This document shows positions 26,436-44,503 of a stretch of 64,000 nt of DNA, piece by piece. This stretch comes from Natronosalvus rutilus. Lineage in GTDB: Archaea > Halobacteriota > Halobacteria > Halobacteriales > Natrialbaceae. The position numbers and the translations under genes were made by a program. Location of the stretch: contig NZ_CP100355.1 in assembly GCF_024204665.1 (NCBI RefSeq), positions 2,089,451 through 2,153,450 on the forward strand, in the 5' to 3' direction. Numbering within the stretch: the stretch's first letter is position 1; every line of letters starts with the position of its first letter. Under the pieces are notes generated by a model, which worked only from the letters and a program-made list of their open reading frames with translations, did no database searches and was not told the origin of the DNA.

Positions 26436-26618
26436 TGCGCACTCGATACGCAGTTGCGCCGTTGCTTAAATCATGGGAGTTTGCGTCGAGTCTCGAGTCT
26501 GGAGTTCGACGCTCGCCCCCCTCGATCGAAGGATCGTTCGCACTGGCCCGGCTCGAGTCGCCTGCCCGCGTTCCAATTCGATGCCGTCCTTCCAAATCGA
26601 GAATCGGAGGCCGCTAGC

Positions 26619-26981
26619 TCACTTGGCGTACCGCGATTTGCCGGTCGAAGCCCGATACACGTCGTGGGATTTGAAATACAGCGCTACGAGTAGCAGAATT
26701 ACCGGGACGAGTAGTACGAAGAGTACTGATCCGTAGGAGAAAACCAGCAACCCGAATATCCCACCGGCCAACAGGTACCAGCGTCGAAGGAAGATTCCCG
26801 CGACGCTCAGGAGTGCGGCTCCCGTGATCGATCCAAACAGGATCGCTCGTGCTCGAGTGTATCCTGCAGGCTGTAACACGCTTCCTGTGTGAAACAAATC
26901 GATGTAGAGCGCAGCGAGGGTAACGAAGACGACCCCGGTCGCCACTGCCCGGAGGAGGGGCAGTTGGTTCTGGTACTTCAT
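26619..26981 (-). CDS. Small four-helix membrane protein
   Basis: A 120-residue protein with about four hydrophobic segments: LLRAVATGVVFVTLAALYI, AILFGSITGAALLSVAGIF, WYLLAGGIFGLLVFS and VLFVLLVPVILLLVAL. The C-terminal tail is basic (KSHDVYRASTGKSRYAK), so probably cytoplasmic. The ORF is open further upstream into the tRNA remnant, but MKYQNQLPLL is the first credible start. It belongs to no family I recognise. It lies just outside the tRNA-bounded segment. Confidence 0.7.
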   Translation of the reverse strand: MKYQNQLPLLRAVATGVVFVTLAALYIDLFHTGSVLQPAGYTRARAILFGSITGAALLSVAGIFLRRWYLLAGGIFGLLVFSYGSVLFVLLVPVILLLVALYFKSHDVYRASTGKSRYAK

Positions 26982-27158
26982 CGTGGTTAATATTGGCCGT
27001 CTTGCGACATAATTATTCGGTACACTACACGTTGGACGAGTTCTCCGTTGGTTTCCCGTTCCCTTCGGTTGCGGCCGTGTTTTCCTTGAGAGACTCGTCG
27101 TTCCCGTTCGGGACGACCTCCGGTCGATAGCACAGCGCTTTTCGAAACTGTGCGTGGA

Positions 27159-27202
27159 ACAGGATTCGAACCTGCGGACTCCTACGAGACTGCGTCCTAA
27201 GC
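27159..27202 (-). repeat. Partial copy of tRNA-Leu 3' half (attachment-site remnant)
   Basis: These 44 bases match 43 of 44 bases of 28796-28839 in the intact tRNA-Leu, from the anticodon loop through the variable arm and T arm. The next nine bases (27150-27158) also match at seven positions but carry two changes in the acceptor strand. On the other side the match stops at the edge of the anticodon loop. No 5' half is present, so it cannot be a tRNA. This is the signature of recombinase-mediated insertion at a tRNA gene. Confidence 0.85.
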
Positions 27203-27204
27203 CC

Positions 27205-27225
27205 AAACGCGCCACAAGCGCGTTT
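27205..27225. other. 7-bp hairpin next to the tRNA fragment
   Basis: AAACGCG (27205-27211) and CGCGTTT (27219-27225) are perfect inverted copies around a 7-base loop, two bases from the end of the tRNA-Leu match. In the plus direction it is followed by another T and could act as a terminator; it may equally belong to the element's recombination site. Confidence 0.4.
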
Positions 27226-27387
27226 TAGCGGCCATTTCTGCCCCGTTCAGTCCTTCTTGGAGCGTCTGTTTTTATAGTAAGGTTCTGATAGTATATTACA
27301 TTTCACGGGACAGCGTTAGCGACTGTACCCCCTCAGAACGCCATTTAGTTCATTGTGTTGCCATTATCTGCCTGTGTTCCATCTGCG

Positions 27388-27418
27388 GCCGATCTCCCTT
27401 GACAAGGGAGCGGTCGGC
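27388..27418. other. Strong imperfect hairpin inside the tRNA-bounded segment
   Basis: CTCCCTTG-A-CAAGGGAG (27394-27410) is a perfect 8-bp inverted repeat around a single base. Outer arms GCCGA (27388-27392) and TCGGC (27414-27418) also pair, leaving a small asymmetric bulge. It lies in a 283-base stretch (27203-27485) that contains no credible gene. It could be a terminator for a rightward transcript, a protein site or an element end. Confidence 0.5.
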
Positions 27419-27485
27419 TCTCCCCTGCATAACAAGTCAATACCTGGTCGTCCTCGAGAATACCGTGCCGCGAGGCTTCGGACAG

Positions 27486-27956
27486 TCAGTTATCAGGTGA
27501 CTGTTCATCATCGCAACTGGACGACCACCACAAATCGACTTCCCCGGCCTGACCAGGGGCAAGACTTCCAATTTGAATCAGAACCCAAGCACAAGTGGTG
27601 TCATACTCACTGAAATCGAACCGTTGCCAGTCCGATCGCGGTTGATCGTCTCGCCATGCATAGAGTTCGTAGGAGCCGGACTCGGTTGGATAATTCTCAA
27701 ACCACCCACCCCCAGTCTGTTCTGTATCGGGATCGGCGGCCTCTACTTCCATCGCCCTCCAATACACTGGCTCATCGTCTTCGACTATCAACACGTAAAC
27801 TGTGTGTGCCTCGAGATCGTGATTTACAACTTCGAGTTTCGATAAGCGAGGTTCCTCTGATGAGCCAATTCCAAGTGTAGTACAACCACCTATCCCGACA
27901 ACAAGAGGAACACCAGCCCAGTGGAGGAGTTTTCGTCTCGATACCAAAGCATACAA
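27486..27956 (-). CDS. Putative lipoprotein with TTG start
   Basis: A 156-residue ORF beginning SRRKLLHWAGVPLVVGIGGC after a few residues: a twin-arginine-like signal and a lipobox ending in Cys, so a membrane-anchored extracellular protein. The mature part has two later cysteines (TTCAW and SSSCDDE) and ends in an acidic tail; it looks beta-rich, with no known domain. Only TTG codons (27956 or 27947) are available in frame, rare for haloarchaea; 27947 lies about 27 bases after the TATA-like CATATTATCC. Base composition is lower in G+C than the chromosome. It may be a recent arrival or slightly decayed. Confidence 0.6.
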   Translation of the reverse strand: MYALVSRRKLLHWAGVPLVVGIGGCTTLGIGSSEEPRLSKLEVVNHDLEAHTVYVLIVEDDEPVYWRAMEVEAADPDTEQTGGGWFENYPTESGSYELYAWRDDQPRSDWQRFDFSEYDTTCAWVLIQIGSLAPGQAGEVDLWWSSSCDDEQSPDN

Positions 27957-27957
27957 A

Positions 27958-27979
27958 CATATTATTGTGGGATAATATG
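27958..27979. promoter_or_regulatory. 8-bp inverted repeat overlapping the lipoprotein promoter
   Basis: CATATTAT (27958-27965) and ATAATATG (27972-27979) are perfect inverted copies around TGTGGG. The right arm coincides with the likely TATA box for the leftward lipoprotein gene, so a protein bound here would block it. The two arms may instead simply be two AT-rich promoter boxes. Confidence 0.4.
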
Positions 27980-28116
27980 AACGTTCTGTTCGACGGATAA
28001 GACGACCGTTGATTGAGGTACTATGCTCGTTATTTACTCTGCCCGTGCTGATCAGTATAGAACCCAGTCGGTTGTCGTTGGAAGTTCAGCAATGGCGGTG
28101 TTCCATCAACGATGAA

Positions 28117-28383
28117 CTACCGCTGGCTCTGCTCCTCGTCAGCCTCCTTGAGCGCCTTCCACTCCTCTATGTCCTCGTTCGTGATAGGATGAGACAGCGG
28201 GCCACCTGGCGGCGCGAGGGCGACGTAGAGCAGGTACCCGAGTAGACTGAATAGAAGCACGATGAGGAACCACGTAAACGGATCGCGGTCGGGGTGCTCG
28301 GAGTTGGCCTGTTTCAGGTAGACGGCTGTCGCAACGGCTACGTTGACGACCACTAACAGCAGGACTAATTGAATCAGGTTCAT
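28117..28383 (-). CDS. Small two-helix membrane protein
   Basis: An 88-residue protein starting MNLIQLVLLLVVVNVAVATAV, with a second hydrophobic segment FTWFLIVLLFSLLGYLLYVAL near residue 45. A soluble C-terminal helix rich in Glu and Lys (NEDIEEWKALKEAD) follows. The start is five bases after the stop of the 42-residue CxxC gene, and an upstream in-frame extension overlapping that gene is rejected. This is the last gene of the three-gene mini-operon inside the tRNA-bounded segment. The function is unknown. Confidence 0.65.
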   Translation of the reverse strand: MNLIQLVLLLVVVNVAVATAVYLKQANSEHPDRDPFTWFLIVLLFSLLGYLLYVALAPPGGPLSHPITNEDIEEWKALKEADEEQSQR

Positions 28384-28388
28384 AGCCG

Positions 28389-28517
28389 TCAGTCCTCTCG
28401 GTTCGCTTGTGCGACCTGATAGCAGGGCCAGCAGGGAAGGTCGGACAGGGCCGCACACTCCGGGCACTCCTCGAGATCGTCGACCTTGTCATCGTCGAGA
28501 ACACCGCCGTCCGCCAC
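28389..28517 (-). CDS. 42-residue protein with two CxxC pairs
   Basis: A GTG-started ORF reading VADGGVLDDDKVDDLEECPE and then CAALSDLPCWPCYQVAQANRED. The cysteines form CPEC and CWPC, suitable for one zinc ion. It ends five bases before the ATG of the 88-residue membrane protein and begins 33 bases after the stop of the 43-residue gene. The close spacing and clean acidic composition support a real gene despite its size. No ATG is available in frame. Confidence 0.5.
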   Translation of the reverse strand: MADGGVLDDDKVDDLEECPECAALSDLPCWPCYQVAQANRED

Positions 28518-28550
28518 TACGTCCGCCCGTTGGTTCGAGATTCTCGAGCG

Positions 28551-28682
28551 TCACTCGAGGATACGGGCGCGGGGTTCTCGTAGGTAATCGCCGCGTTGAG
28601 GTTGCTTCTCACTCAGCGGATCCTCGTTTGGAGTGGGAACGATCCGGATGGTCCGATTAGGCTCGAGTTCGGTCGTTTCCAT
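28551..28682 (-). CDS. 43-residue hypothetical protein, first of a three-gene run
   Basis: Reads METTELEPNRTIRIVPTPNE and continues to LREPRARILE before the stop. A strong TATA-like TAATATATACG lies at 28720-28730, about 40 bases before the ATG, so a short leader is expected. The ORF is open upstream through the TATA box, but that part is unlikely to be translated. It heads the compact leftward group 43 aa, 42 aa (CxxC), 88 aa (membrane). No homologue is recognised. Confidence 0.45.
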   Translation of the reverse strand: METTELEPNRTIRIVPTPNEDPLSEKQPQRGDYLREPRARILE

Positions 28683-28787
28683 TACGGGACAGCGTTCTAG
28701 TGTTTTCGGTCTGGTTTCGTATATATTAGGGGCTTTTGTACTCACAGACACTCCAAGAAAAATGCACGACTCAACGGATTTGAGGAG

Positions 28788-28869
28788 TGCGCGGGACAGG
28801 ATTCGAACCTGCGGACTCCTACGAGACAGCGTCCTAAGCGCTGCGCCGTTACCACTTGGCTACCCGCGC
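28788..28869 (-). tRNA. tRNA-Leu (anticodon UAG)
   Basis: An 82-nt class II tRNA. The acceptor stem GCGCGGG pairs fully with CCCGCGC, with A as discriminator and no encoded CCA. The D arm is GCC...GGC, the anticodon stem CAGCG/CGCTG encloses CTTAGGA (anticodon TAG), the long variable arm CTC-GTAG-GAG is typical of leucine tRNAs, and the T arm is GCAGG/CCTGT around TTCGAAT. No intron is present. Its 3' half is duplicated 1.6 kb downstream, showing that it served as an integration target. Confidence 0.97.
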
Positions 28870-42200: not shown

Positions 42201-42427
42201 GGACGGAGGGCGTAGGCTCGAGCGGCCGATGACGACGTACTCGCTCCGAACCGGACTCGGCACCCGGTGGTGACGAGCCCTATGAGTGCCGAGGCCACCG
42301 ATTTCCTCGAGGTTTTTGGCTACGCGGGCCCAACGTGAATAGAGACGAGTCGTCCGCATCGAAGGCAGATCGACTCCCTGGAATTTCGAAAGCAGTCCGC
42401 TCCGCTCCGTTCGGACAGTCGATCGAC

Positions 42428-44503
42428 TCAGAGCTTCTGGGCCTCGCGCGCCTGAGCGGACCGACGTTTGGCCTGCTCAAGGCGGCGTTCGGTCGCGCGG
42501 ACCCGTGTCGGCGGAAGCGAATCGCTGGCCTCCACCAGCCGCGCTTCGACGGTTTCCAGGCGGGTCGCCACCGCGTCGAGACTCCGGTTCGCACCGCCCC
42601 GATCGCCCGACTCGGCGCGCGTTGCGGCTCGGCGGGCGGCGTCCACGACGGCCTCGAGCGCTTGCGAAAGTCCCTGAATCGCATTTTCCCGGCCCTGGTC
42701 GTCGGATGCGTCCGAGTCGTCGGTCGCCACACCGACACGGGTCTCCTCGGCGAGGTCCGCGAGGTAGGTTGCAAGGGGGGTCTTGCCCGTCCGCGGCTCG
42801 TCGATGTGCACTCGTTCCTCATCGCCGGGGTTGACGCGGAACGCGCCGACCTCGCCGTCGCTGTCGCGAATTTCGGTCGTGAATGCTCCGCCGCGGTGGA
42901 CGTACACCGCGTCGGGGCCGGACAGCGGGGCGTCGTACAGCCGTCCGGCGAAGTCGTCCTCGACCGCGAGGGTGGTGAGGTTGCTGTCGGCGTCGTCGGG
43001 ATCGATCTCGAGTTTCGTGGCGTTCTCGCGGGCCACGGTGGGGATTTCGCCGTTGACGCCGGCGATCGTTGTGTCGCCGTCGTCGGAGACTGTGATCGTC
43101 TCGCTGTGGGGAGCGACGCCAGCGCCGTTTATCGTCAGGGTGTGCTCGCCCTCGGGGACGTCCTGGAGGACGGCGATTCCCTGGAACGTCGGTACCGCTT
43201 CGGGGTCGCTCTGGAGCAGTGCGAGCATCTCGATCGTCGAGGATTCGGTGGTCAGCCCTTCGTCTTCTGGGGCGTCGTCGGAAGCCACCACGTTCGTGAT
43301 GCCGGCGACGATCTGGTTGACTGGCGAGGGGTCACTGATAGCGTCGTATCGATCTGAAAGCGCCTGACGGTGTCTAATTTCGGTGATGTCGCTTGCTGGT
43401 TCGTCGTACCGGGCCCCTTTCCAGGGGACGCCGGTCGTCGTGAGGTGGCCGGCCATGGCGTCCTCCGCGAACTCCGGAATGGCGAACTCGAAGCTCAGTT
43501 GCGGCCCCGTGAATTCCTCGATGTGTTCGAGTTCGGCCGTCGGGACCAGTTCGTACGCTACGTCGGGGTCTGCCCCCTCACGTCCCCGGTACTCGAAACG
43601 GTAGCCTGACTCTCGGCCCGGAAGGTCTGTCGGCGGCGACTGGAGCGTGTCGAACGAGCGGACGGTCAACTCGTCGGGAACGAGATCCGAGGCGTCGACT
43701 GACGGAAGCCGCTCGTGTTCGTAGATCGGTTCGCCCTCGAGTTCGGGGACCGCAAACGGGAGCGCCAACCCCTCGTCGCGCGGGAGGCCGTAAGCCAGCG
43801 GAATTGCCGCGACGTCCTCGAGGCTCTCGACGACGCTATTGGTGATGTCGGCTACGTCGTCGTCTATGGGAAACCGCTGGAAGTGTTCGGCGTCGGCGTT
43901 GATCGAGAGGGCACTAGAGTGCGAACCGAGTTCCGAGAGGATCCGCGGTCGCTGTTCGGGGTCGGGGTCGAGGAACTCGTTGTTCGGCACCGATCGGGAG
44001 TGGGAACTGGCGACGTACAGTTGCGGTTCGTCGGTGTCGGTGTCGACGAACACCTGCAGGACCTCCCAGTCGTGCCAATGGAAGTTCGTAGTGAACTGAT
44101 CGAAGACGGAGTAACACCAGAACTGAACGACTACCAGCGGCGAATCGTCGTACTCGACGGCGTGGTAGAACACTGTTGGGTCAGGCGGTTTTCGTCCGTC
44201 ACCATCGTTCCGACGCTTCACATACCCGTCGAAGGCGTCGAATCCATCCACGGCGAATTCGCCATCCCGCTCGCTCTCGTATCGTCGGGGGTCTGTCGGG
44301 AACCACTGCTCGTGGCGGTCGAAGTACACCGTCGGTGCGAACCGTTCGGCGAGTGAGCGCGCCCGTTCGTCGTCGAGGTTCGAGGTTGCGTTATCAGCGC
44401 TCCGTTCGAACAGTGAACAGCCCGCCAGTGACGCGGCCGCCCCGCTCGCAACTGTCCCGAGTACTGTCCGTCGGTCGATCGACAGATCGGTGTCTTTGCT
44501 CAT
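42428..44503 (-). CDS. Tat lipoprotein with a VPS62-like domain and helical C-terminus
   Basis: A 691-residue exported protein. The signal DRRTVLGTVASGAAASLAGC ends in a lipobox Cys. The segment LAERFAPTVYFDRHEQWFPT, followed by VVVQFWCYSVFDQFTTNFHWHDWEVLQVFVD, resembles VPS62-like domains of fungal and bacterial secreted proteins (YAP...HxGDWE pattern). The middle has a beta-rich carboxypeptidase-regulatory-like part. The last 90 residues are an Arg/Ala/Glu-rich helix pair that may be coiled coil. The function is unknown; the family name rests on motif resemblance only. A metzincin-like membrane protein gene lies 303 bases upstream on the same strand. Confidence 0.7.
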   Translation of the reverse strand: MSKDTDLSIDRRTVLGTVASGAAASLAGCSLFERSADNATSNLDDERARSLAERFAPTVYFDRHEQWFPTDPRRYESERDGEFAVDGFDAFDGYVKRRNDGDGRKPPDPTVFYHAVEYDDSPLVVVQFWCYSVFDQFTTNFHWHDWEVLQVFVDTDTDEPQLYVASSHSRSVPNNEFLDPDPEQRPRILSELGSHSSALSINADAEHFQRFPIDDDVADITNSVVESLEDVAAIPLAYGLPRDEGLALPFAVPELEGEPIYEHERLPSVDASDLVPDELTVRSFDTLQSPPTDLPGRESGYRFEYRGREGADPDVAYELVPTAELEHIEEFTGPQLSFEFAIPEFAEDAMAGHLTTTGVPWKGARYDEPASDITEIRHRQALSDRYDAISDPSPVNQIVAGITNVVASDDAPEDEGLTTESSTIEMLALLQSDPEAVPTFQGIAVLQDVPEGEHTLTINGAGVAPHSETITVSDDGDTTIAGVNGEIPTVARENATKLEIDPDDADSNLTTLAVEDDFAGRLYDAPLSGPDAVYVHRGGAFTTEIRDSDGEVGAFRVNPGDEERVHIDEPRTGKTPLATYLADLAEETRVGVATDDSDASDDQGRENAIQGLSQALEAVVDAARRAATRAESGDRGGANRSLDAVATRLETVEARLVEASDSLPPTRVRATERRLEQAKRRSAQAREAQKL

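Follow-up and report, generated by a model that had tools for sequence, protein, structure and literature searches.

The segment considered here adjoins the tRNA-Leu(UAG) gene of Natronosalvus rutilus (genome G000), and lies within a window that comprises the whole 64,000-nucleotide stretch of DNA that was analysed. The features at the locus, from the tRNA leftward, are the following:

28787..28869, minus: intact tRNA-Leu(UAG), anticodon TAG (ARAGORN; Rfam RF00005, 59.5 bits)
28787..28839, minus: tRNA-side attachment repeat, the tRNA 3' half (53-nt repeat, starting at tRNA position 31)
28551..28751, minus: HSTV2-type tyrosine recombinase, reduced to an N-terminal stump that is followed by a stop (profile and tblastn)
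28389..28517, minus: probable C-terminal stump of a SWIM zinc protein, 42 aa, CPEC..LPCWPCY (Halobellus rarus match)
28117..28383, minus: small membrane-protein ORF, 88 aa, with no convincing relative
27486..27938, minus: lipoprotein-like ORF, 150 aa, probable cargo (plasmid-borne relative)
27150..27202, minus: distal attachment repeat, with no tRNA gene (repeat search, ARAGORN, Rfam)
26562..27149, no strand: further species-specific stretch, beyond the left repeat and absent from two congeners (G006, G007)
26619..26981, minus: 120-aa membrane-protein ORF within 26562..27149

Attachment repeats, extent of the insertion and the empty site

The tRNA-Leu(UAG), whose sequence is the same over 82 nt in five other genomes (G003, G006, G007, G008 and G027), is the attachment gene, and the element starts at its 3' end. 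A direct repeat of the 3' part of this gene, already recognized in the preliminary description, is present at both ends of the element, with copies at 27150-27202 and 28787-28839 that lie 1637 bp apart (start-to-start) and are identical at 50 of 53 nt (94%). The repeat had been described as 44 bp with one mismatch; it is in fact 53 nt with three differences, and the single mismatch holds for a 43-nt core (27160-27202 and 28797-28839) in which one base differs between the copies. Searched as a pattern, this core has 2 matches in the window and 0 in 100 dinucleotide shuffles, and is therefore not a chance repeat. The match is bounded by the anticodon loop, as had been stated, beginning at position 31 of the tRNA, where the loop starts on its 5' side, and the two further substitutions noted earlier in the left copy are seen close to its end (GTGCGTGGAACAGG vs GTGCGCGGGACAGG). 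The left copy is without the tRNA 5' half, and as neither ARAGORN nor Rfam calls a tRNA there, the possibility that it belongs to a second real tRNA was rejected. It would rather be the displaced, original 3' half of tRNA-Leu, as had been suggested, a reading which fits the geometry of the intact elements described below, while the tRNA-side repeat would be the copy donated by the element.

The interior between the repeats (27203-28786) is indeed lower in G+C, at 53.2% vs 64.7% for the whole window, a value matched in only 2 of 313 sliding windows of equal size. Two congeners (G006 and G007), which are ~91% identical to the window over the surrounding DNA, carry the empty tRNA-Leu site expected of an integrated element: they are without the segment, ~257 bp separate the 3' end of the tRNA from the start of sucC, and the flanking genes on the other side of the site are the same as in the window. 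The identities among the three species are 90.9, 91.2 and 91.8%, figures that do not by themselves give the branching order. On the left, homology to these congeners is regained at ~26562, and on the right it starts again at the tRNA; the species-specific DNA therefore amounts to 2.2 kb (26562-28786) and exceeds the 1.6 kb bounded by the repeats. The repeats thus do flank 1.6 kb, as originally proposed, but on the left the species-specific DNA continues past the repeat. Vertical inheritance of the segment, with the same DNA in all relatives, was rejected, as equivalent DNA is lacking in the 7 other members of the genus. Other members of the genus and family have hairpin units or other short DNA directly after tRNA-Leu, and none has a 53-nt copy within ~10 kb of this gene, from which it follows that the inserted state is the derived one. 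Within the genus, no Pfam integrase was found near tRNA-Leu(UAG).

Integrase stump, neighbouring ORFs and intact counterparts

A family-wide search with the ORF at 28551-28751 returned weak matches overall; matches 1, 2 and 7 outside the window, however weak, adjoin tRNA-Leu(UAG) in other genera, and in G114 the corresponding stretch forms the N-terminal end of a tyrosine recombinase of 340 aa (PF00589, E=3.5e-15). When a profile of full-length relatives was run against the six-frame translation of the window, this ORF was the sole match (E=1e-8), covering model positions 5-50 of 364, or the first ~45 residues, and by tblastn it matches the integrase of G254 (E=3e-10). On the basis of these two results the small ORF by the tRNA is an integrase stump (its integrase-like part being about 28566-28712), which sits in the expected place, beside tRNA-Leu, and in the expected orientation, reading away from it. 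The same six-frame profile search revealed no other integrase fragment in the insert, and neither a full-length recombinase nor the PF00589 catalytic domain is present in the window. The earlier statement that there is no integrase is consequently correct for the catalytic part and incorrect for the N-terminus, and the ORF next to the tRNA no longer counts among the small, unfamiliar genes of that description. The segment is derived from the HSTV2-type family and is not a functional member of it.

The remaining ORFs of the interior yielded nothing useful in PHROGs or Pfam, and no replication/primase or virion gene family is found among the ORFs of the segment. The 88-aa ORF had no match in viral, plasmid and phage searches. 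The closest relative of the lipoprotein-like ORF (62%) resides on a 230-kb plasmid of Natronosalvus caseinilyticus (NZ_CP100395.1); a second, split (frameshifted) copy of this gene exists in the same genome as the window (G000:C1:1581751-1582196, L099). For the 42-aa ORF, the match is to the C-terminal end of a SWIM protein in the tRNA-Leu element of Halobellus rarus (54% over 28 aa, E=4e-5), and its LPCWPCY motif also occurs in the elements of G410, G417 and G167. In these elements the SWIM gene is close to the distal end, far from the integrase; in the window the integrase and SWIM stumps are adjacent and share one reading frame with a stop between them. The presence of a SWIM C-terminus beside the integrase stump suggests an internal deletion, and a single such event joining the two stumps would be the simplest account.

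Full-length relatives of the integrase begin just 3' of tRNA-Leu(UAG), or sometimes of tRNA-Leu(GAG), at ~20 distinct haloarchaeal loci. Fifteen elements were examined over 30-40 kb each for a distal copy of the tRNA half, and in 12 of these a copy of 44-58 nt was found 2.4-34 kb away (G254, 2.4 kb; G410, 6.4; G167, 6.6; G417, 7.0; G342, 13.7; G281, 14; G382, 17.4; G059, 20; G114, 25.6; G390, 29; G159, 29; G309, 34), even the 2.4-kb element of G254 having a full-length integrase. The larger, integrase-bearing elements that the preliminary description anticipated at this tRNA are thus found in many other haloarchaea, bounded by a tRNA-half copy, and together with the empty sites they support its central proposal of a segment left by a tRNA-integrating element. 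In these integrase relatives the attachment site, which is the 3' half of the tRNA and starts at the anticodon loop, at the same point as the repeat in the window, lies upstream of the integrase start codon. On a 418-kb replicon of Halomicrobium urmianum (NZ_CP084091.1, ~146488; L249:485-541, L253), a tRNA-Leu half without the 5' half stands between the integrase, which starts ~44 bp further on, and a SWIM protein gene, and is the attP of this plasmid. Likewise, HSTV-2 and HRTV-7 (L254, L255) contain, directly before the integrase, a 54-nt match (2873-2926) to the 3' half of a tRNA-Leu whose anticodon is GAG, and this match is likely to be attP. The HSTV-2 and HRTV-7 integrases are 46% identical, and the integrase accordingly falls into the HSTV2 family as named in PMC8371274, under the threshold of 30% identity over 60% cited in that paper.

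Stumps of this kind were also encountered elsewhere. In G254 a second N-terminal integrase stump (L218:2957-3091) is located behind hairpin units, after the intact element, and in G010 one (L048:4075-4182) lies directly behind hairpin units at tRNA-Leu, suggesting that such elements have decayed repeatedly, with the end closest to the tRNA being spared.

Hairpin units 3' of haloarchaeal tRNAs

The hairpin units themselves occur 3' of many haloarchaeal tRNAs, among them tRNA-Leu(UAG) in many relatives (L008-L035) and tRNAs of the source genome (L120, L127, L130, L133, L135, L136, L137, L141, L147). Each consists of two hairpins within ~100-200 bp, with up to four units in tandem at tRNA-Leu. 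The last 20-29 nt of each duplicate the 3' end of the tRNA that it follows, and the 5' arm is complementary to the T loop of the same tRNA, tracking the local variant of this loop (TTCGAATC/GATTCGAA, TTCAAATC/GATTTGAA, TTCAATTC/AATTGAA). Across 116 distinct tRNA loci, tail copies were found downstream at 39 and upstream at 1; for the source genome, of whose 44 tRNA loci 30 were taken in, the corresponding figures are 9 of ~30 and 0. The folding of four units lies 2.2 to 4.4 sd below that of shuffles. A clean before/after pair is provided by G055 (L236) as compared to G264 (L232) and G410 (L226), where only G055 has a 106-bp unit between tRNA-Leu and the integrase leader, inserted exactly at the tRNA 3' end.

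Rfam returned for these units the tRNA itself and one chance-level microRNA match, and we found nothing relevant on tRNA-tail repeats of haloarchaea in the literature. In E. coli, RtT repeats follow tyrT, and these are to our knowledge the sole parallel. The haloarchaeal units look like tiny, RtT-like insertions with duplication of the tRNA tail. We suggest, tentatively and with rather less than even confidence, that they are an archaeal counterpart of RtT; they may also form a class of mini-elements, templated by tRNAs or targeting them, that has not been described before. They look more novel than the element itself, and they pose the question of the route by which copies of a tRNA's 3' end are added behind the same tRNA. 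As a separate observation on the window, Rfam matches an sR-tMet C/D box RNA at 42224-42296, near tRNA-Val(GAC) (43023-43114).

Origin of the segment and comparison with known systems

We are highly confident that the segment represents an integrative element at tRNA-Leu(UAG) that has decayed and undergone internal deletion, and with this the meaning of the repeat, as the attachment site of such an element, is settled. In the proposed sequence of events, an HSTV2-type tyrosine recombinase would have recombined the chromosomal tRNA gene with an attP consisting of the 3' half of tRNA-Leu, starting at the anticodon loop, such that the element supplied the present 3' half of the tRNA and the original half was displaced to 27150-27202. 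In a later deletion, ~46 codons from the start of the integrase gene would have become joined to the 3'-terminal part of the SWIM zinc-protein gene, with loss of the catalytic domain and the replication genes. The resulting stump of 1.6 kb, which has one lipoprotein-like gene and one gene for a small membrane protein, would no longer be capable of self-excision. A few observations count against this account: the 88-aa and lipoprotein-like ORFs were not found in intact elements by tblastn, and could be later additions; the SWIM match comprises 28 residues; and no hairpin units follow the left repeat. Such units, with further 21-28 nt copies, usually come after the displaced copy in intact elements; in their place the window has 0.59 kb of unrelated DNA with the 120-aa ORF.

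This last stretch raises the possibility of two successive integrations, in which 26562-27149 would be an older tandem remnant and 27150-28786 a younger one. Such an accretion array would extend the main explanation, and we rate it at only a little under an even chance. The 2.2 kb of 26562-28786 are wholly missing in G006 and G007 and yet are split by the left repeat, and tandem use of tRNA-Leu is known from G254. The 120-aa ORF has no relative in the same genus, and among 124 other genomes of the family 4 contain weak ones. On the other hand, the stretch contains no trace of an integrase, and a candidate tRNA copy at its outer end was rejected as not significant, its alignment score being equalled or exceeded in 843 of 1000 shuffles on one strand and in 166 on the other.

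It is considerably less probable, and in our estimation quite unlikely, that the segment is a non-autonomous mini-element that can still be mobilized in trans by an integrase encoded elsewhere. Both attachment repeats are nearly intact (50/53), tiny elements occur at tRNA-Leu (that of G254, with its own full-length integrase), and the source genome does encode other tyrosine recombinases; none of these is of the same subfamily, however, the best match to the G114 integrase being confined to the catalytic half, and the left copy has drifted, with no further copy of the segment among 125 family genomes. Least probable is that the left copy is a duplicated tRNA tail of the hairpin-unit type and that the interior genes came another way, since, common as copies of 20-29 nt are 3' of haloarchaeal tRNAs, those of hairpin units end in the T arm, whereas the copy in the window is 53 nt and extends to the anticodon loop like those of integrase-bearing elements, and the integrase stump, in the right place and orientation, largely refutes this reading.

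The decayed element, virus- or plasmid-like in nature, is an unambiguous genomic fossil of a rather ordinary sort. Its broader value is that HSTV2-type integrases, including those of HSTV-2 and HRTV-7, become tied to a concrete tRNA-Leu attachment site, which renders their integration directly testable. There is precedent for integrase-less, tRNA-bounded remnants in haloarchaea, as a 6.7-kb segment at tRNA-Thr1 of Haloquadratum walsbyi, with a partial tRNA copy and no integrase nearby, has been interpreted as the leftover of a prophage or integrative element (PMC3119063). It resembles the segment described here in its displaced partial tRNA copy and decayed interior, and differs in that it uses another tRNA, is larger, has 5 mismatches in 57 nt and has no reported integrase stump. 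Loss of the integrase gene after integration has also been noted (PMC8371274). SNJ2-type haloarchaeal viruses similarly employ a classical tyrosine recombinase at a tRNA 3' end (PMC8371274), but with an attachment site of only ~13-14 nt as opposed to the 44-58 nt from the anticodon loop in the tRNA-Leu elements. The suicidal integration of SSV-type viruses is likewise tRNA-targeted, with an overlap region at the anticodon loop (PMC8371274), but there the attachment site lies inside the integrase gene, which integration splits; in elements of the present type it lies outside this gene, which argues that the stump is a deletion product and not an SSV-type split. In comparison to intact HSTV2-type tRNA-Leu elements, the segment is reduced to 1.6 kb, is without the catalytic integrase domain or a replication gene, and carries other cargo; it shares with them the tRNA, the start of the repeat at the anticodon loop, the SWIM-type zinc C-terminus, and an integrase N-terminus just 3' of the tRNA that reads away from it.
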